IMG/VR virus record: IMGVR_UViG_3300018036_000074
Location: 1 to 22,816 of that record
DNA length: 22,816 nt
Strand: one strand, 5' to 3'
Origin: a virus
A program made the position numbers and the translations under genes. Under the pieces are notes generated by a model that searched no databases, had not been told where the DNA came from, and saw only the letters and a program-made list of their open reading frames with translations. Below are positions 768-8,447 of the stretch, piece by piece (the first letter of the stretch is position 1; each line of letters begins with the position of its first letter).

Positions 768-775
768 TATTTATA
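768..775 (-). promoter_or_regulatory. T4-type late promoter (TATAAATA) with leaderless spacing
   Basis: The reverse strand reads TATAAATA exactly, then five bases (GTGGT), then the ATG of the 190-aa gene. In T4 late promoters the last base of this element lies near -6, which would put +1 on the A of the ATG (762). The element also overlaps the TAA stop (773-771) of the upstream gene. This implies separate late transcription of the gp2-like and tube-like genes, probably as a leaderless message. The motif match is seen directly; its activity is inferred. Confidence 0.55.
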
Positions 776-1499
776 ATGGTTTTATAGGATTAAATGTATA
801 TTTTCCTTCAGGCGTTTTAAAAAATATTACTCTGTCATTTACTTTGACACACTCAGTATTAAAAGTTATAACATATTTTTGTCTAAATTCGTCAGTTCCA
901 CAGTGTTGTTCAGCTAACTCATATCCATGTTTTTGTGTATATTTAAGATTAACATTTTTCCAGGTATCAAGGTTCAAGATATCTTTAATTGCAAACCAAT
1001 GGTCTGCGTTTTGAAAGTTATAGCAATATGCACTTTTTGCTGCAAATTTCATAATAAGGTCCCCTAAATTATTATCAGTAACAACTACTTTTACCCTGTA
1101 ATGATCTTTCCACCAACTCATACAGTTAGTTCTTGCATTCCCTGGATGGATAAAAAAAGTATTAGGTTTTTCTAACCTTACTATGTTTAAAGGAACTCTA
1201 TATGTTTTTAATCCTGCTGTACAAAAATAATGATATTTGGACCAATCATATATGTGTGCCTTTACACGGTCATTATGATATTCATTTGTAATTTCATAAT
1301 CAGGTTCATATGTAAATTCAAATTCAGTTTTATCTGTTAATTTTTTTAAGTCATTTAAATATATTTCCCACCATCTCTCAAGTTTATCTTCAAAATCCAA
1401 GTTGGTAATCTCTACAAAATCTTTAAAACTTACTTCAAACAAATAAAAATTTATTTTTGATGATTCTACTATTTTGAAAAAGATGTCATCTGGTTTCAT
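771..1499 (-). CDS. Unknown 242-aa protein coupled to a radical-SAM enzyme
   Basis: I do not recognise this 242-aa protein. Its start codon overlaps the TGA of the radical-SAM gene by four bases (ATGA, 1499-1496), so the two are very likely translated as a pair. It is rich in aromatic residues (many Trp, Tyr and Phe) and has five scattered cysteines. No signal peptide or membrane segment is visible. A central conserved-looking stretch reads FFIHPGNARTNCMSWWKDHY at about residues 114-133, and the C-terminal part is polar. The HPGN-R element looks like a functional site, but I cannot assign chemistry. Because of the coupling it could be a substrate, partner or second enzyme for the radical-SAM protein. 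It is not a T4 core gene and looks like an accessory insertion between head-completion genes. Confidence 0.75.
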   Translation of the reverse strand: MKPDDIFFKIVESSKINFYLFEVSFKDFVEITNLDFEDKLERWWEIYLNDLKKLTDKTEFEFTYEPDYEITNEYHNDRVKAHIYDWSKYHYFCTAGLKTYRVPLNIVRLEKPNTFFIHPGNARTNCMSWWKDHYRVKVVVTDNNLGDLIMKFAAKSAYCYNFQNADHWFAIKDILNLDTWKNVNLKYTQKHGYELAEQHCGTDEFRQKYVITFNTECVKVNDRVIFFKTPEGKYTFNPIKPL

Positions 1500-2467
1500 T
1501 TTTTATAATCCTTAAGAGAAAATTCCGTACCTAACATGTAGTCTATACTGCTGTTAGGGTCATTGCTCCAGACTAGAACTTCTGGATTTTCATATAAGAA
1601 ATCACAATTTTTACAATAATCAATCTCATCAAACCTTTCTTCTATATGAAGTTTACGTAATTCTTCATATTTTTCACCAAAGTATATTTCTTCTATACTT
1701 TGTTCTGAAAAGTGTCCCAGCACACTCTTTGCTTCGTTAGGTGGGCCTAGTGTTTGACAGCATGGAGTAACTGCGCCTGTTTGTCCATTATTACCGCCTG
1801 CACGTATTGTTATTTCAGGCGCGAAAGGACGACCACACGTTCTTTTAACAGGAGCTTCTCTGCCGTATGTTGGTTTGTAGTTGCCACTCCAATTGTGCAT
1901 TTTCCAAATGTAACCAATAGTGCCTATTTTATTAATAACATTTCGTCTGTATTCTTCAACCTCAAAATCAATTTGATTGTTGTTAAGAATAAGATGATAA
2001 GAACTCACTTCACATTTGCTACCTGATTCTGCTATATACTCTTTCAGTTTGATAGCGTTTTCAGATACCATATCAAAGTTATCCATACTCATCCACTTTT
2101 TGTACATCTCTCTGTTGTAGCCTATGAAACTAAAACGCATGAATCCTAATCCAGCGTCTACAACATCTTTCATAAAGTCACCACGTAAAAAACTTCCATT
2201 AGAATACATATAAGACTTGAGTCCTCTACGTGTACACGCTTCAACATACTCAGGCAATCGCTTGTTCATAGTAGGTTCGCCACTGCCTTCTAAATTTATA
2301 ATAGGCGTCCCATACTTTGGGGTTATTTGATCGAGTATATTTTCAAACATATCCAATGGCATGATACGAGTCCAGTCTTTACCGCGACCCGGATCTGAGT
2401 GAGGACACATGGCACACGAATAGTTACAACCACCCGCAACTTCAATTACTGCTCTTTCTAGTTTCAT
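1496..2467 (-). CDS. Radical SAM protein with SPASM-like C-terminal cysteines
   Basis: 323 aa. The N-terminus carries the radical-SAM cluster motif C14-x3-C18-x2-C21 (GGCNYSCAMCPH), which binds a [4Fe-4S] cluster that cleaves S-adenosylmethionine. NLEGSGEPTMN (about 58-68) matches the GGE-type SAM-binding motif. The C-terminal third has C211, C236-C237 and C285-x2-C288, a spacing like SPASM or twitch domains that hold auxiliary Fe-S clusters. Such enzymes typically modify peptides or proteins (maturases) or act on sugars or other small molecules. The substrate here is unknown. Its start overlaps the gp4 stop by four bases (2467-2464) and its own stop overlaps the 242-aa gene, so it is the middle of a three-gene coupled set. 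Family assignment is firm; the role is open. Confidence 0.9.
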   Translation of the reverse strand: MKLERAVIEVAGGCNYSCAMCPHSDPGRGKDWTRIMPLDMFENILDQITPKYGTPIINLEGSGEPTMNKRLPEYVEACTRRGLKSYMYSNGSFLRGDFMKDVVDAGLGFMRFSFIGYNREMYKKWMSMDNFDMVSENAIKLKEYIAESGSKCEVSSYHLILNNNQIDFEVEEYRRNVINKIGTIGYIWKMHNWSGNYKPTYGREAPVKRTCGRPFAPEITIRAGGNNGQTGAVTPCCQTLGPPNEAKSVLGHFSEQSIEEIYFGEKYEELRKLHIEERFDEIDYCKNCDFLYENPEVLVWSNDPNSSIDYMLGTEFSLKDYKK

Positions 2468-2910
2468 AATCCTAATTCTTTTTCAGTTATAATTTTAAAT
2501 TTCCACTTACGATCTTTACAAAATTCTTCAGCTGCTTCCCATTTGGCGAGATTAACCCCCCATTGTTTTACTTCATTTATAAACCTTTTAGTCCGACGTT
2601 TGGGGATTTTAGGTTCTTGTGTAAAGCGATAAGGTTTTACTTCTACAAGATACATTTCAGTTAAACTATTATTACATACTTTTACATAAAAGTCAACAAA
2701 ATATCTATGATATTTGTTATCTAAAGGCGAACGATATGGTATAATTACTTCCTCACTTCCCCATTCTTGTACAGAATCATTCAAATCACACCAATTCATA
2801 AATTTTAACTCATAACTAGAACGATAAATAATGTTACTAACATCCCCTTTATATTTAGCAGGATTCCGAGGTCTAAACTTTCCTTGGTATAATTGTTTTG
2901 TATATGTCAT
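2464..2910 (-). CDS. 4: Head completion protein gp4
   Basis: 148 aa, close to the 150 aa of T4 gp4, which is needed to finish filled heads before tail joining. The opening (YQGKFRPRNPAKYKGD) corresponds to T4 gp4 (SGKWVPKNISKYRGD), and IIYRSSYELKFMNWCD and WGSEEVIIPY also align with it. The fold is that of TnsA-like PD-(D/E)xK nucleases, and the expected acidic/lysine set is visible: E34, D73 and E90-V-K92. This suggests the nuclease-type site is intact. The gene is first in the leftward unit, with a late-promoter-like element about 31 bases upstream of its ATG. Its last codons overlap the radical-SAM start. Confidence 0.9.
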   Translation of the reverse strand: MTYTKQLYQGKFRPRNPAKYKGDVSNIIYRSSYELKFMNWCDLNDSVQEWGSEEVIIPYRSPLDNKYHRYFVDFYVKVCNNSLTEMYLVEVKPYRFTQEPKIPKRRTKRFINEVKQWGVNLAKWEAAEEFCKDRKWKFKIITEKELGL

Positions 2911-2961: not shown

Positions 2962-3507
2962 ATGGCTACATTAAATCTTAGAGTAGGTAATGATACTCTA
3001 ACACATCAAGAGGTAGACGATAACTTCACTAATATTAATAATGAAGTTCTAGATCTACAAAATGATAAACTAGATGCCGCTGACGGTACTGGTACAGGTA
3101 CCCATACTTTTAATGATGTAGATGTTACTACTAATCTAGACGTAGGTGGTAATATTACAGCTACAAGGCTTAATGCCTCTATACGTGGTAAAATGCAAGC
3201 CCTCGGTAGTATTTCAGGTTCCACTACTATTGATCTAGATGACGGTGATATTGTCACTTGTACTATTACAGGCAACACTACTTTCACTGTTTCTAATTTC
3301 ATGGCAGGAGCTGTGAATACTGTAAGTTTTTACATTACTTGGTCAGCCTCGTCTACTCCTACAATTACTTGGCCTTCAGGTGTTGTATGGGACAGAGGAA
3401 ATACTCCTGGGCTAAACACAACTGGTAGTACATTAATTATGTTAGAAACATATGACCAAGGTTCTAATTGGATAGGTGTACAATCTTGGCGGTCATATTC
3501 AACTTAA
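2962..3507 (+). CDS. Short tail-fibre-like structural protein
   Basis: 181 aa. The N-terminus (LNLRVGNDTLTHQEVDDNFTNINN) is the typical opening of marine T4-like phage fibre proteins, a short strand followed by an 'xxEVDxNFTNLN' helix that often becomes a trimeric coiled coil. The middle (about 45-75) is DV..NLDVGGNITA, a head-binding or chaperone-type repeat style. The C-terminal half (about 85-181) is a beta-rich domain, with SGSTTIDLDDGDIVTCTITG and then TITWPSGVVWDRGNTP and GSNWIGVQSW, like domains seen in other marine phage fibre proteins. It is first in the rightward fibre block and is followed 9 bases later by the 656-aa repeat protein. It is probably a fibre or baseplate appendage; receptor binding is inferred only from composition and context. 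Confidence 0.65.
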   Translation: MATLNLRVGNDTLTHQEVDDNFTNINNEVLDLQNDKLDAADGTGTGTHTFNDVDVTTNLDVGGNITATRLNASIRGKMQALGSISGSTTIDLDDGDIVTCTITGNTTFTVSNFMAGAVNTVSFYITWSASSTPTITWPSGVVWDRGNTPGLNTTGSTLIMLETYDQGSNWIGVQSWRSYST

Positions 3508-3516
3508 GGAATCGTT

Positions 3517-5487
3517 ATGCTAAGACGGTGGCTTCTATCCCAGGGCGGTAAAAATACTACTACGGAGACAACATTTGCGACTCCGTATACTACTGTCTGG
3601 CAAACACAAACTTCTAGGGTGACACCATTTTCTACCTTGGGTCAGACTAATACTCAGACCTCCAGGCTGACACCTGTTATAACTGGTGACCTTACACAAT
3701 ACACTACCTCTTGGATTACTACTACACTTACTCCTACGACTACTTCTTGGACAACTACATGGTTTAGAAACACATTATACCCGTATAATATACAAACGTC
3801 TATATTAACGCCGTATATCACACAAAGACAAACTGATTATAGTAGGAATACAAATACAGACCGATCAACACAAACTACTACACAATATAATACTCTAACC
3901 AGTGCGGGTGCAAGTAGAGCTACACAAACAAATGACACAACACAATATACTACACAATATACTATTCCAACTAATACGGGTTTAAGTAGACCTACACAAA
4001 CAGATAGAACTACTTCTACATACACTTTTACACCGTATACTACTCCTATACAGACTGATAAGACTACCAGCTACTCAACTAATTGGACAACCAGCTGGAC
4101 TATTCAAAGCCAAACTGTTCTGCGTAATACGCAGAAAAACACTAGCCGGCAGACACAGACTTTCCTAAGACAATCAGTTTATGATTCTGGTTCAAGACAA
4201 ACTCAGACATTGACCAGCTGGACTGAACAGGTAGATGTATTTGTTCGCTATGACTATTATCAATCAAACACTAGTTACTCTCGCCAAACAGAGAAGAATA
4301 CTACTTATAGTGGTGTCTCCGGATCGTCTTCAACAAGAACAAGTTGCGATCAAGATTTCGCTCAAGGAAGTATTACATTAGCAATGCCTCAATGTACTGT
4401 GTTGTCATATTCACTTCAGGGCACTACTGGAACGATCTCTGGAACAGGTTCGGCATCTAGGACCACTACTTGGACAACTAGCTGGGGGTATATAGGGGGT
4501 TATATAGCTTATTTCGCCGCCGGTGACGGTTATCTTGACAATTATTATGATGCTTTTTGTTTGTCCGAGAGCGAATATGCCATCTATTGTGGGGTTGGTG
4601 GGCTAGGATACCAACAGGGGTTATGTACCGCCGAATCATGTACTGTCAGTGAAGGCCAATCTAGAAATACTAGTAGAAATACAACATATCAAAGTAGCTA
4701 TTCTTGTGCAGAAACAGCTCAGTATCTTGCAGACTTTAGTTGCGTCACAAGTTACTCCACAGCGTGGTCAGGCCAGACCGATTACCCGGTGGCTGTTTAT
4801 CGTCAATCAGATGTAAATTATAGTAGACAAACAAATACAACTACAACCTGGGAGCTGTATGCGGATGTTTATAGAAATACCACGACTACATGGCAGACTC
4901 TTAAACCGACATATGTAACCACAGACTATAACTATTCAAGGAATACTGATAGAGCAACATCTAGACTTACACAAAAATCTACTTTAGGGACAACAGGTAC
5001 TCAAACATTGACTTCATGGACTACTCAGGGACTTACTACTACTTCTTGGAGTTCGCAAACTACTGTTCTTGTCCCTGTAAGCACCGATTATACTACTCAG
5101 AGATTTACTACTACTTCTTGGGGTTCGCAAATTAATACTCAGGTCGACGGAATCACTCAATATACTACTCAGGGTGTTACCTCTACTACTTGGCAAACAA
5201 CCACTTCTTGGACTTCAAACTATTCAACTAGTTGGTTAACTCCTGTCAGTACGAATTCACAGACTTCCGTTAGTAGAATAACGTCTGTTACTACACAGTA
5301 TTCTACATCATGGTCAAGAAGTACATCTACTAATTATACAACAGGTGTAACTACTCAGAAGAATACATATTATCAGACACAGACCTCGACTACCAAACCG
5401 ACATCGAGATCTACTAGCTGGGACACAGAATATGCAAGCAATACAACAACGCAAACCAGTAGATCTACTACTTGGTTTACACCTTAA
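3517..5487 (+). CDS. Giant Thr/Ser/Gln/Trp repeat protein, fibre-like, with eight-cysteine island
   Basis: 656 aa, with AGGA upstream of the ATG. After a short basic start (MLRRWLLSQGGK) nearly the whole protein consists of degenerate short repeats rich in Thr, Ser, Gln, Asn, Arg, Tyr and Trp. 'TSW' occurs 12 times, and SR(Q/P/A/L)T(Q/E/N) units recur. Near residues 502-573 there are three consecutive 24-residue units. The repeats are interrupted at residues 277-409 by a different segment that contains all eight cysteines of the protein and a Gly/Tyr/Ala-rich stretch (GYIGGYIAYFAAGDGY). Alternating polar beta-branched residues suggest an extended beta-fibre or solenoid. No enzyme motif, signal peptide or clear membrane helix is visible. 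It lies between a fibre-like gene and a candidate fibre chaperone, so a host-contact fibre or adhesin is the best guess. I cannot name a family with certainty. Confidence 0.7.
   Translation: MLRRWLLSQGGKNTTTETTFATPYTTVWQTQTSRVTPFSTLGQTNTQTSRLTPVITGDLTQYTTSWITTTLTPTTTSWTTTWFRNTLYPYNIQTSILTPYITQRQTDYSRNTNTDRSTQTTTQYNTLTSAGASRATQTNDTTQYTTQYTIPTNTGLSRPTQTDRTTSTYTFTPYTTPIQTDKTTSYSTNWTTSWTIQSQTVLRNTQKNTSRQTQTFLRQSVYDSGSRQTQTLTSWTEQVDVFVRYDYYQSNTSYSRQTEKNTTYSGVSGSSSTRTSCDQDFAQGSITLAMPQCTVLSYSLQGTTGTISGTGSASRTTTWTTSWGYIGGYIAYFAAGDGYLDNYYDAFCLSESEYAIYCGVGGLGYQQGLCTAESCTVSEGQSRNTSRNTTYQSSYSCAETAQYLADFSCVTSYSTAWSGQTDYPVAVYRQSDVNYSRQTNTTTTWELYADVYRNTTTTWQTLKPTYVTTDYNYSRNTDRATSRLTQKSTLGTTGTQTLTSWTTQGLTTTSWSSQTTVLVPVSTDYTTQRFTTTSWGSQINTQVDGITQYTTQGVTSTTWQTTTSWTSNYSTSWLTPVSTNSQTSVSRITSVTTQYSTSWSRSTSTNYTTGVTTQKNTYYQTQTSTTKPTSRSTSWDTEYASNTTTQTSRSTTWFTP
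5020..5235 (+). repeat. Three in-frame 72-base (24-residue) tandem units
   Basis: Units start at 5020, 5092 and 5164, each beginning ACTACTCAG and encoding TTQ. Units 1 and 2 share most bases over their first 40 positions (for example TTACTACTACTTCTTGG then GTTCGCAAA) and diverge in the second half. Unit 3 is degenerate. They encode TTQ(G/R)(L/F/V)T(T/S)T(S/T)W plus a variable tail ending in Y or W. This is the clearest DNA-level trace of how the repeat protein grew by duplication. Confidence 0.8.
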
Positions 5488-5504: not shown

Positions 5505-6023
5505 ATGTTATATGCGAGAATTAATCGCGAAACTAAAGAGGTGTTAGAGTTTCCTATTAATGAAACCTCTCTCAGAGACCGTTTTGCTAATACTACTCTT
5601 CCCAAGAAAATTGACGACTGGGCTTTAATGGATACTGATTATGCTTTAGTACCTCCAGGCCCTACGGATTTAAGACCGACTATTACCCATAGAGTTGGGT
5701 CTGTCGGTGCCGAATGGAATGAAGAAACTGGGGATTATGTTAGAATTTATGGTTTAGTAGAAGTTCCGGAAATAGACCGACCTTCTAGAACTGGTCAAAG
5801 ATGGCTTTTCTTAAAGCAAGAAAGAGCAAAACATTTAAGAAGATATGATTTTGCTGTGAATAGATATTTGAGTGAGGTTCGCCAAGGACTAACTCCTACT
5901 GATGATATTGAACAGTTAGACGCATTTGCTCAAAAGTTAAGAAACATGACAACTCAGTATGCTAACCCATATATGATTGATGAAAAAACCTTCTTTAAGT
6001 ATGTAGTTGATGAAACTGAATAA
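5505..6023 (+). CDS. Candidate tail-fibre assembly chaperone
   Basis: 172 aa from the ATG at 5505, chosen because AGGAG (5492-5496) sits correctly before it. The frame stays open to an earlier ATG at 5472, but that start lacks a ribosome-binding site and lies inside the preceding gene. The N-terminal half is a small acidic domain (INRETKEVLEFPINETSLRD) like that of assembly chaperones. The C-terminal part, WLFLKQERAKHLRRYDFAVN followed by QKLRNMTTQYANPYMID, resembles the Phage_tail_APC pattern (R..LL..tDw...R..LR.i..q..p..i). Such proteins help phage fibres fold or trimerise and are typically encoded right after their client, which here would be the 656-aa repeat protein. The assignment is an inference from pattern and position. 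Confidence 0.5.
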   Translation: MLYARINRETKEVLEFPINETSLRDRFANTTLPKKIDDWALMDTDYALVPPGPTDLRPTITHRVGSVGAEWNEETGDYVRIYGLVEVPEIDRPSRTGQRWLFLKQERAKHLRRYDFAVNRYLSEVRQGLTPTDDIEQLDAFAQKLRNMTTQYANPYMIDEKTFFKYVVDETE

Positions 6024-6055: not shown

Positions 6056-7039
6056 ATGAACAACGAGCAACAAAACGAAATTTTTAGAAAATGTCGTCCC
6101 GATAATGCTGATGTATTGATGATTAACAAAAGGATCAAAGAACAAAATGATCCGACTTTATCATATGCTTATCGTTCTGAAAGGAACACTTGGGCCGAAG
6201 ATTTTGAGGAGACTTTAAGATCTTTGGCCCCATACCCCATATCATATGATGTAGGTTCTGTACAAGGATGTGATTTCAGTGAATTCACATACACTGAGTT
6301 TCCCGGCGGCGGTATCTGGGCAGACACACAGTCTAGAGAAATTAATTGTCGCATTATGGAAAACGCATCAAAAATAGATGGCGGTGAACTTGGCGATTAT
6401 ATGTCTGAAAAATTTTTAGAAAATGTTACCGATACGTATAAACTAAATGCCCCCCTAGAAAAATATTATGACCATATTATTTTTATGCCTGGACATAATC
6501 TTTTAGATCTTGCAGACAAAGAACAAATACAGCGTTTAGTGCAAGAAGAGGATGATGTTGTTATTAAACCTCACCCACTTACTGATTACGATTTTATGCG
6601 TATGTTAGCTAGCAAGTTGGGTTGGCAGAAAGTTTTATGGCGAGATGTATCAGGCGTCGATCTTCTTTTAAATTGTAAAACTGTGTATAGTACCACCGCG
6701 TCTGAAATGTTAATATTGGGAGCAGCTCTAGGGAAAACAATATATAACATATCAGTTTTTAGTGCTGAGGGAGCGGGTGTATATCAACCAATTAGCAGAA
6801 TTTTGACCATTGCTCAAAAGAGAGAAGGCAAAGAAGCGGCTATACAAAAACTTAAAAACATATTAGCTTGTCCTTGGACAGGGATTGTATTTCCTTTTAC
6901 TGAAAACCCAGAAGAAAATATGAAAAAGTTTTTTGATAAGGCTTTAGAAATGCGAGAAATGTATAGACCTCTTTCCTCAGGTAGAGGAAAGCTGGATGCT
7001 GAGGCAAGACCACACCCTGAGAAACCGGTAAGAAAATGA
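6056..7039 (+). CDS. Capsule-synthesis/GT-B-type glycosyltransferase-like protein
   Basis: 327 aa. The C-terminal half shows the signature of capsule polysaccharide synthesis and CDP-glycerol or Kdo-type transferases. It has DDVVIKPHPLTD (166-177), whose KPHP motif is at 171-174, then VDLLLNCKTVYSTTASEMLILG (201-222), which corresponds to the 'D-LL-Ca-VyT-tSt-gfEALLlGk' sugar-nucleotide-binding region. IIFMPGHNLL (141-150) is a plausible start of the Rossmann-type C-terminal domain. The N-terminal acceptor-binding half is divergent and has no clear motif. No membrane helix is visible, so it would act in the cytoplasm on a sugar nucleotide. Its stop overlaps the next gene by four bases. Position just after the Ser/Thr-rich fibre gene and its chaperone makes a virion protein a possible acceptor, but this is speculative. 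It might instead alter a host surface glycan. Confidence 0.65.
   Translation: MNNEQQNEIFRKCRPDNADVLMINKRIKEQNDPTLSYAYRSERNTWAEDFEETLRSLAPYPISYDVGSVQGCDFSEFTYTEFPGGGIWADTQSREINCRIMENASKIDGGELGDYMSEKFLENVTDTYKLNAPLEKYYDHIIFMPGHNLLDLADKEQIQRLVQEEDDVVIKPHPLTDYDFMRMLASKLGWQKVLWRDVSGVDLLLNCKTVYSTTASEMLILGAALGKTIYNISVFSAEGAGVYQPISRILTIAQKREGKEAAIQKLKNILACPWTGIVFPFTENPEENMKKFFDKALEMREMYRPLSSGRGKLDAEARPHPEKPVRK
6971..6991 (+). other. Coding-region hairpin (8-bp stem)
   Basis: CTTTCCTC and GAGGAAAG pair perfectly around a 5-base loop (AGGTA) within the last codons of the glycosyltransferase-like gene. There is no T-tract after it, so a factor-independent terminator is unlikely. It may be chance or a local mRNA structure upstream of the coupled start at 7036. 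Confidence 0.35.
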
Positions 7040-7254
7040 AACCAGAACACGAAGAAAGAGCAAAGATATGTATGGGGTGTGAGTATTTGCGCCCCACTAT
7101 AAGAACTTGTAAAAAGTGTGGATGTTTTATGCCAGCTAAGGTCAGACTAGATTTTGCTTCTTGTCCTATAGGTAAATGGAAAAAAATTGTTAGAAATCCT
7201 GATGGGAGTGTTATAAATAGTGAAAATACTAACACTTCTAATCAGGAAGAGTAA
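7036..7254 (+). CDS. Small zinc-ribbon-type protein
   Basis: 72 aa. Cysteines C12-x2-C15, C25-x2-C28-x-C30 and C43 (ICMGCEY, TCKKCGCFMP, SCPIGKW) form an evident zinc-binding ribbon of the kind found as a small conserved protein in marine T4-like phages, with the CGCFMP and CPIGKW landmarks. The last 20 residues are a polar Asn/Ser/Glu tail. It is translationally coupled to both sides: ATGA with the gene before and TAATG with gp48 after. A late promoter lies inside its 3' end. Its function is unknown. The position immediately before gp48 suggests a baseplate or assembly role rather than transcription control. Confidence 0.75.
   Translation: MKPEHEERAKICMGCEYLRPTIRTCKKCGCFMPAKVRLDFASCPIGKWKKIVRNPDGSVINSENTNTSNQEE
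7212..7219 (+). promoter_or_regulatory. Late promoter for the hub operon (TATAAATA, intragenic)
   Basis: Exact late element inside the end of the zinc-ribbon gene. The predicted +1 near 7225 lies about 29 bases before the gp48 ATG, with AGGAAGAG (7245-7252) as ribosome-binding site. No other match was seen until 12675, so this promoter may serve gp48 through the 200-aa unknown gene. Confidence 0.6.
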
Positions 7255-8447
7255 TGCCTTCAGAAAAAGATTTAATAGACCAAAGAGAAGCAGCAGCAGG
7301 TAAGGCCACCGACAGTTTTCAAGATCTGAAAGCCACTGTTGCTACATCTCCTAGTGTACATCACTACCCATCTGATCTTCATGTTGAAAGAGGACAAGGG
7401 GCAACATACCCACACAGTGTAATCTTCTATATCAATGCTCGTTCTAACAGCAGAGTAGGGCAAGCAGCTATAGCAGAAAATGCTAATAATGCACAGTTTG
7501 CTCAGGCTCAAAATAGATTAACTGCTGAGTACACTGGTCAAAATAGAATGAAGTCTGAACAGTATGCTGAGATTGCCGCTTCTGTAGGTGCAATTACTGC
7601 CGGCGTCGCGGGTGGTGCGGCTTTAAAGAAACTTTTTAACGGTGATTTAAAATCTGCAATCGGGTCCTTCATTGAAAAAGGAGCAATAGGTACTGCTGCT
7701 GCCGGTGTTATTGCTTCGGTAGCTGATTCCTCTACTCAAGTTAGATTACTAAGTGCGATTGAGCTTGTGACTCAGACACCCCCGATTGCAGCATATGGGG
7801 CATCATATGACCAAGAAGATGTAGGTGCAGTCGGTATTTTTGGCCAAGAAGGAGGTTTTATGGAGGCACTTACCAGCCCAGGAGCCTCTGCCGAATATCT
7901 TGCAAGAGGTGCGATTTCTGCAGCAGCCCAGCTACCAGCAGCTGCTGGTGTAAATATAAACGTGGGTGCTGCTATTGAAGCAACTTCTAAGAAAGTTGCT
8001 AACCCATATAGAGAGCAGTTATTTAAAAATATGGAATTTAGAAAGCATAGTTTCAGTTATCAGTTTGCTCCTAAAAACAAAGCAGAACTTGAAAGCGTAA
8101 TGGAAATTATACAGCTTTTTAAATATCATATGCACCCTGAAAAAACTGCTGACAGATTGTTTTTGATATATCCTTCAGAATTTCAAATAGAATATCGTTA
8201 TAATGGTACAGATTTCGTGGGCCCTCCTGATGGCGGCCAATTTACTCAGACAAGTAGAAATACATGGTTGAGTAAAATCGGTTCTTGTGTACTGGAAAAT
8301 ATGAGAGTGACTTACGGCAATCAAGACTTTGTAACTATCAAGGGAACGTACGGTGCTCCTGCATTTATTAATATGGAACTTACGTTTGCTGAAACTGAAC
8401 TTCTTACAAATGATCGTATAGGTCAAAACTTTAGGGATAGCTTCTAA
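7254..8447 (+). CDS. 48: Baseplate tube cap gp48
   Basis: 397 aa; T4 gp48 has 364. gp48 caps the baseplate hub and, with gp54, starts tail-tube polymerisation. The C-terminal tube-like domain is diagnostic: FRKHSFSYQFAPKNKAELESV, then FKYHMHPE, LFLIYPSEFQIEYRY, and CVLENMRVTYGNQDF with a final MELTFAETELLTNDRI. The N-terminal region (35-65) has a strand pair beginning SVIFYINARSNS. The middle (about 100-165) is Ala/Gly-rich with predicted helices and looks like an insertion compared with plain tube proteins; one segment (SVGAITAGVAGGAALKKLF) is hydrophobic but not a convincing membrane helix. The stop TAA shares one base with the gp53 start. Confidence 0.85.
   Translation: MPSEKDLIDQREAAAGKATDSFQDLKATVATSPSVHHYPSDLHVERGQGATYPHSVIFYINARSNSRVGQAAIAENANNAQFAQAQNRLTAEYTGQNRMKSEQYAEIAASVGAITAGVAGGAALKKLFNGDLKSAIGSFIEKGAIGTAAAGVIASVADSSTQVRLLSAIELVTQTPPIAAYGASYDQEDVGAVGIFGQEGGFMEALTSPGASAEYLARGAISAAAQLPAAAGVNINVGAAIEATSKKVANPYREQLFKNMEFRKHSFSYQFAPKNKAELESVMEIIQLFKYHMHPEKTADRLFLIYPSEFQIEYRYNGTDFVGPPDGGQFTQTSRNTWLSKIGSCVLENMRVTYGNQDFVTIKGTYGAPAFINMELTFAETELLTNDRIGQNFRDSF

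Follow-up and report, generated by a model that had tools for sequence, protein, structure and literature searches.

What is the role of a 656-residue phage protein made up largely of short threonine- and serine-rich repeats, and which part of it, the repeats or a cysteine-rich segment lying inside them, is its defining element? The gene occupies positions 3517..5487 (plus strand) of a 22,816-nt window, by which we mean the whole stretch of viral DNA that was analysed (IMG/VR record IMGVR_UViG_3300018036_000074), and forms a single open reading frame with an ATG start. A first-pass annotation had counted 656 residues, 12 copies of TSW and eight cysteines all within residues 277-409, and these counts were borne out. 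Threonine contributes 178 of the 656 residues. The 12 copies of TSW compare with a mean of 0.8 and a maximum of 7 in 2000 shuffles of the same composition; SRxT occurs 18 times (shuffle mean 1.1, maximum 6) and SRxTQ five times (shuffle mean 0.09). Threonine positions are autocorrelated at a lag of four residues (0.27) and of eight (0.20), with values of ~0 at lags 1-3 and 5-7, and the residues found most often between threonines spaced four apart are, in order, [ST], an aromatic or basic residue and [STN]. The repeat unit is the tetrad T-[ST]-[RWYFK]-[STN], not TSW as such.

The repeat is held at the protein level: all four threonine codons are used and TSW is spelled in several ways. At the DNA level just two tandem duplications stand out within the gene, at 3866..4002 (plus strand) and 5020-5193, each of a 72-nt unit (24 residues or six tetrads), and these point to growth of the gene by 24-residue, six-tetrad duplications. 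In close pairs the protein evolves with a dN/dS of ~0.5-0.8. The whole protein has no family match in Pfam, NCBIfam, PHROGs or PDB, including the known fibre and adhesin families in these collections, and the tetrad repeats by themselves have no match in Pfam. A phmmer match to glucosidase 2 beta (E 0.04) and NCBIfam matches (0.03-0.07) were dismissed as chance. Tblastn searches of the phage collection with the repeat protein, and also with one relative, returned no matches, probably because the low-complexity filter strips the repeats. A scan of viral contigs with the protein as query returned one near-identical copy only, and a scan with a repeat-family profile gave five loci, none of them new; relatives were instead reached by searching via neighbouring genes. 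We found no description of the tetrad repeat or of its enzyme pairing in the open-licence literature, and the set of threonine-rich phage proteins of which this one is a member is apparently undescribed.

Relatives in the same position of the gene order align best at their ends. The N-terminus, MLRRWLL..GGKNTTTETTF (residues 1-24; 3517..3588, plus strand), is a putative attachment segment in which M1, T14, T18 and T22 are invariant and L6, G11 and F20 nearly so; the relatives begin with MSWTRKLF or MSRRFWLG. In the C-terminal motif TTTQTSRSTTWFTP (5443..5484, plus strand), T643, T647, T651, W653 and T655 are invariant and S648 and R649 nearly invariant, and the same-slot homologues share a C-terminal TSR[ST]T[TSN]W while their middle parts vary. 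It is in this middle part that the cysteines lie, at residues 277, 293, 348, 358, 370, 375, 397 and 409 (island 277-409; 4345..4743, plus strand), with none elsewhere. The island had been called a non-repeat segment; the confinement of the cysteines to it stands, and the label is slightly too strong, as tetrads occur inside it at residues 316-323 (TTTWTTSW) and 382-390 (SRNTSRNTT).

It may be, along the lines of the first-pass annotation, that the repeats build a shaft, either a solenoid or a (triple) beta-fibre, into which a compact disulphide-bonded or metal-binding cysteine head is set, the head being the receptor contact and the functional part. A strict four-residue periodicity would suit extended beta-structure, and the island is central and cysteine-rich in all 12 same-slot relatives examined (8-24 cysteines), with an even number in 11 of the 12, which weakly favours disulphides. 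CxxC is present in most of these relatives and is absent from the window protein. However, AlphaFold2 with 13 homologues in the input gives no fold for the repeat protein (pLDDT 33.8, pTM 0.26, low confidence throughout), a result that speaks for neither order nor disorder, the island is poorly conserved (13-23% identity between relatives and the window protein), and a search with the island alone found no match in Pfam or PDB and no known fold. Further to that, tetrad relatives in Caulobacter phages, KVP40-type phages and most metagenomic phages have few or no cysteines and lack such a head, so that the island is optional and is not needed for the pairing of tetrads with an enzyme described below. 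We consider this explanation improbable. The cysteine head of the first-pass annotation gives way to the repeats: judged by these relatives, the island is a feature of one clade, and it is the repeats rather than the head that define these proteins.

Its gene content marks the window as a piece of a T4-like phage. Downstream it encodes a tail tube cap, a gp53-like wedge, a hub lysozyme and wedge genes, a region that recurs in marine contigs with a distant relationship to Pelagibacter phage HTVC008M. With the tail tube cap gene as query, a search of viral contigs revealed a four-gene cassette that encodes, in order, a fibre-tip protein, the repeat protein, a tail-fibre-assembly-like protein and a protein that we refer to as g6056. 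The cassette is inserted between a TnsA-like gene (2464..2910, minus strand; PF08722, 1.9e-21), the HTVC008M equivalent of which is annotated 'head closure', and the baseplate tail tube cap gene (7254..8447, plus strand; PF11091, 1.5e-7; phrog_230, 4e-51); in many related contigs without it, these two genes directly adjoin each other. To the left of the cassette, between gp2-like and TnsA-like genes, the window carries a radical SAM/SPASM gene and an unknown gene (771-2467, minus strand), and among the loci this radical SAM gene is common only to L002, L019, L062 and L069.

The first cassette gene encodes a fibre-tip-like protein of 181 residues (2962..3507, plus strand; phrog_7760 tail fiber, 7e-11) and is present in every T4-like cassette with enough sequence. 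The C-terminal domain of this protein recurs ahead of tetrad genes in L216 (1.3e-14) and L218 (1.3e-4) and ahead of proline-repeat genes in L058 and L082. The L216 protein (L216:1653-3914) is a 753-residue GDSL-esterase fibre, with the fibre-tip domain at its end, encoded directly before the tetrad gene. The second slot is taken by a tetrad protein in L007, L012, L015, L019, L025, L047, L059, L110, L111 and L114. The third gene matches phrog_4912 (tail fiber assembly) at 5e-5 to 7e-4 in its L110, L111 and L114 homologues and at 0.026 in the window copy. Its listed TTG start at 5472 overlaps the repeat reading frame; as the homologues begin with MLYAR, the true start is probably downstream, at MLYARINRET (5505..6023, plus strand).

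The repeat gene is thus found between fibre-tip and assembly-like genes, a fibre-operon location. In Caulobacter phages Lullwater and BL198, tetrad relatives come after a gene annotated as tail fiber, and in other viruses tetrads are fused to virion, tail or glycine-rich tip domains. Gene order and fusions together place the product on the tail fibre, and we conclude that it very probably forms part of the virion, in the tail or a fibre, in agreement with the first-pass annotation. In the gp37/gp38-type arrangement of T-even phages, a second protein that evolves fast and an assembly-like gene come after the fibre gene. This arrangement resembles the gene order of the cassette; however, no sequence similarity was found, and tetrads stand in place of glycine-rich motifs.

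The strongest functional clue, absent from the first-pass annotation, is a linked glycosyltransferase. The fourth cassette gene, g6056 (6056..7039, plus strand), encodes 327 residues for which an AlphaFold2 model and homologues predict a KXHP-type (CMP-sugar) GT-B glycosyltransferase. The model, built with 18 homologues, has a pLDDT of 83.9, and its best matches in VIA-align are KpsC (GT107), WbbB (GT99) and KrkA (GT140), with Z of 9-10.8 over ~205-229 residues. The comparison with 6mgc/8fux gave Z 10.8 over 227 residues at an rmsd of 3.9-4.0 and that with WbbB Z ~10, a predicted, low-identity match set against a background Z of ~7-8; the Foldseek TM against Kdo transferases is ~0.4. By Foldseek E-value UDP-GlcNAc 2-epimerases come first, but their TM of ~0.25 and rmsd of ~10 are poor, and the Kdo transferases, best in VIA-align, are therefore preferred. 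A BolA match (0.064) was dismissed as chance.

K171, H173 and P174 occur in 58/58 distinct homologues and give the (K/R)XHP CMP-binding motif as defined in PMC12887879; N148 and E217 are present in 57/57 homologues, and Tyr128 is invariant wherever it is aligned. An invariant KXHP on a predicted GT-B fold is what g6056 has in common with KpsC, WbbB and KrkA. The retaining Kdo families also share QXXXD with a nucleophilic Asp (PMC10148158, PMC12887879). This motif is absent from the g6056 family, in which the matching strand, as judged by eye from its position after the first strand of the C-terminal domain, reads [LM]PGxN with Asn148 in 57/57. With QXXXD replaced, we do not file g6056 as a member of the retaining beta-Kdo transferases (GT99/GT107/GT140), and neither donor nor mechanism can be transferred from KpsC, with which g6056 aligns across KXHP and a second motif at E 1.4, below significance. 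The resemblance extends to bacterial poly- and sialyltransferases, which carry (K/R)XHP: g6056 has KXHP and a later S-E motif, and matches polysialyltransferase 5wcn at Z 8.4. Matches of the g6056 family to the profiles of Capsule_synth (PF05159, 0.0061) and polysialyltransferase (PF07388, 0.036), each the best among 18 members, lie below significance and below the curated Pfam cut-offs, the window protein scoring 13.4 bits for PF07388 against a cut-off of 23.3; weak as they are, these matches and the KpsC alignment lead in the direction given by the predicted fold. Unlike in the polysialyltransferases, the acceptor of g6056 is presumed to be a protein and not a glycan. The enzyme has a dN/dS of ~0.1 (window versus L007, with dS near saturation), against the ~0.5-0.8 of the repeat protein. 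Taken from the model and the motifs, g6056 looks like a CMP-sugar GT-B enzyme.

Homologues of g6056 were found in Caulobacter phages Lullwater and BL198 (T7-like), in Cr30, in Vibrio phages KVP40, QD01, D527 and F86, in Stenotrophomonas phage DLP_6 and in many metagenomic viruses. Except in DLP_6, where a distant enzyme homologue has no adjoining tetrad gene, each of these named phages has a threonine tetrad gene just upstream on the same strand, sometimes with one small gene between; in Lullwater the tetrad protein is gp41 and the enzyme gp42. In D527 and F86 the tetrad reading frame is present but not annotated in frame, small or out-of-frame calls having replaced it (L090:4147-4680, L093:3972-4529). 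The KVP40 protein (KVP40.0254) and its relatives make up phrog_30374, 'unknown function', so that the earlier statement that no family can be named holds for the window protein in Pfam, NCBIfam, PDB and PHROGs and fails for this relative. Like the window protein, phrog_30374 members are threonine tetrad proteins adjoining a g6056 homologue; they differ in their length of ~200 residues, in having few or no cysteines and in a different N-terminal domain, and the PHROG model does not pick up the window protein.

In the first set of loci (1328 ORFs), each of the 43 tetrad ORFs shares its locus with an ORF of the g6056 family and stands upstream of it on the same strand, within ~3 kb; those loci that were reached via the tail tube cap gene had not been chosen for g6056. 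As a reverse test, viral contigs were scanned for DNA encoding TT[ST]WTT[ST]W alone. Among the matches listed, ~32 loci had tetrad ORFs, and in ~20 of these the locus itself includes a g6056-family ORF; when whole records were searched, again among the matches listed, the enzyme was found in 12 of 14 (E 3e-22 or better), three of which overlap with the ~20, and in the two misses the genes run off the contig end. None of 30 pattern-positive, tetrad-negative control records among the matches listed carries the enzyme. These counts describe a sample in which related viruses are not independent. Clustered at 40% identity, the enzymes form 13 groups, 12 of which have a tetrad gene adjoining or in the record (in cluster L247/L236 the partner is shown just for the same record). 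The pairing spans T7-like, T4-like and other phages, and the tetrad proteins have several unrelated N-termini; the usual position of the enzyme gene, in the loci that were examined, is directly after the tetrad gene. The gene linkage between tetrads and enzyme across unrelated phages is very tight. A scan of bacterial genomes returned one contig, phage-like and from a Bacteroidetes MAG (L258:1-3094), with a tetrad C-terminus, an assembly-like gene and a g6056 homologue, followed by an oxygenase-like gene and ribonucleotide reductase-like sequence.

The linkage could also be read as that of an enzyme which modifies a host glycan or the adjacent fibre-tip protein. In the former case, the repeat protein would be an ordinary unglycosylated adhesin or fibre tip, such as a gp38-type tip carried by a short fibre, and g6056 would act on the host surface, for example by altering LPS or capsule and so excluding superinfecting phages; the two genes would be neighbours since both concern host recognition. 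The fibre-tip and assembly-like neighbours agree with this, as do the fast evolution of the repeat protein between conserved ends and the well-known phage glycosyltransferases that change the host surface (noted also in PMC12619734). Nevertheless, one enzyme family accompanies one extreme repeat across unrelated phages while N-termini and fibre partners differ, and an enzyme of the host surface has no reason to track a threonine tetrad on a fibre, which makes this explanation unlikely, if still worth keeping in mind. In the latter case, the repeats would be a disordered or low-complexity spacer and g6056 would modify the fibre-tip protein, whose gene accompanies all T4-like cassettes with enough sequence; the low AlphaFold2 confidence along the whole repeat protein would fit a spacer. 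We regard this as very improbable, as several records have enzyme and tetrad gene with no fibre-tip domain detected, and a spacer needs neither a fixed tetrad register nor a conserved C-terminal motif.

Given that the enzyme tracks the repeat rather than host or phage type, and that the repeat consists almost entirely of hydroxyl residues, an enzyme and its acceptor are the simplest reading. On balance, we think it probable, by a modest measure, that the repeat protein belongs to the tail-fibre tip or to a surface sheath of a T4-like marine phage and is the acceptor of the co-encoded g6056. The near-constant presence of the enzyme beside tetrad genes suggests that these phages sugar-coat a tail-fibre protein. 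The fibre-tip protein would be made first, and the repeat protein would be joined to it via a conserved terminus, aided by the fibre-assembly-like protein; its tetrads would present ~260 Thr/Ser hydroxyls. Gram-negative bacteria contain CMP-Kdo for LPS. In the host cytoplasm g6056 may use this or another nonulosonate as a CMP-activated acidic host sugar and transfer it onto Thr/Ser of the repeats, which would result in a stiff, hydrated and negatively charged glycan brush. Such a brush might shape adsorption, or shield and hide the fibre, and may also stiffen the repeat.

More tentatively, and with rather more doubt than confidence, we suggest that the pair represents a widespread, undescribed two-gene module of several types of tailed phages, in which a 'mucin-like' Thr/Ser tetrad fibre protein would be served by its own KXHP glycosyltransferase, representing a new family, which would draw on the host CMP-Kdo/nonulosonate pool and give the virion an acidic coat. 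To our knowledge, there are few systems in which the proteins of phage particles have been shown to be glycosylated. If the reading is true, the acceptor-enzyme pair is conserved and easily recognised and occurs in phages with cultured hosts (Caulobacter phages Lullwater and BL198), where virion glycosylation is directly testable; it would give hypothetical genes of many environmental viruses a function and account for an extreme repeat, one which standard homology searches mask as low complexity and annotation pipelines sometimes miss entirely. In mycobacteriophages, glycans on capsid and tail tube subunits shield the particle, as Freeman et al. 2023 are cited in PMC12619734. The likeness lies in glycans on structural proteins, which we infer here; the candidate acceptor in our case, in contrast, is a dedicated threonine tetrad protein, the enzyme is of the KXHP type and the hosts, where known, are Gram-negative.

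A Hint/intein-like tail (..ILTHN..) is found at the end of some tetrad proteins (L127:5264-8713, L172:3020-6655 and L137:1323-2300), with a weak Pfam Hint_2 match in L137. Two further loci (L058:2632-7760, L082:2710-7718) have, in the same slot, a fibre-tip gene, a proline-rich NVASYNAPTPG repeat protein and a PF13640 2OG-Fe(II) oxygenase (prolyl-hydroxylase-like), followed by two unknown genes and a PF11397 GlcNAc transferase. We see in their product a candidate hydroxyproline-glycosylated fibre. This parallel cassette speaks for the enzyme-acceptor reading and suggests a design that recurs at this site, in which a fibre repeat comes with modifying enzymes of its own.
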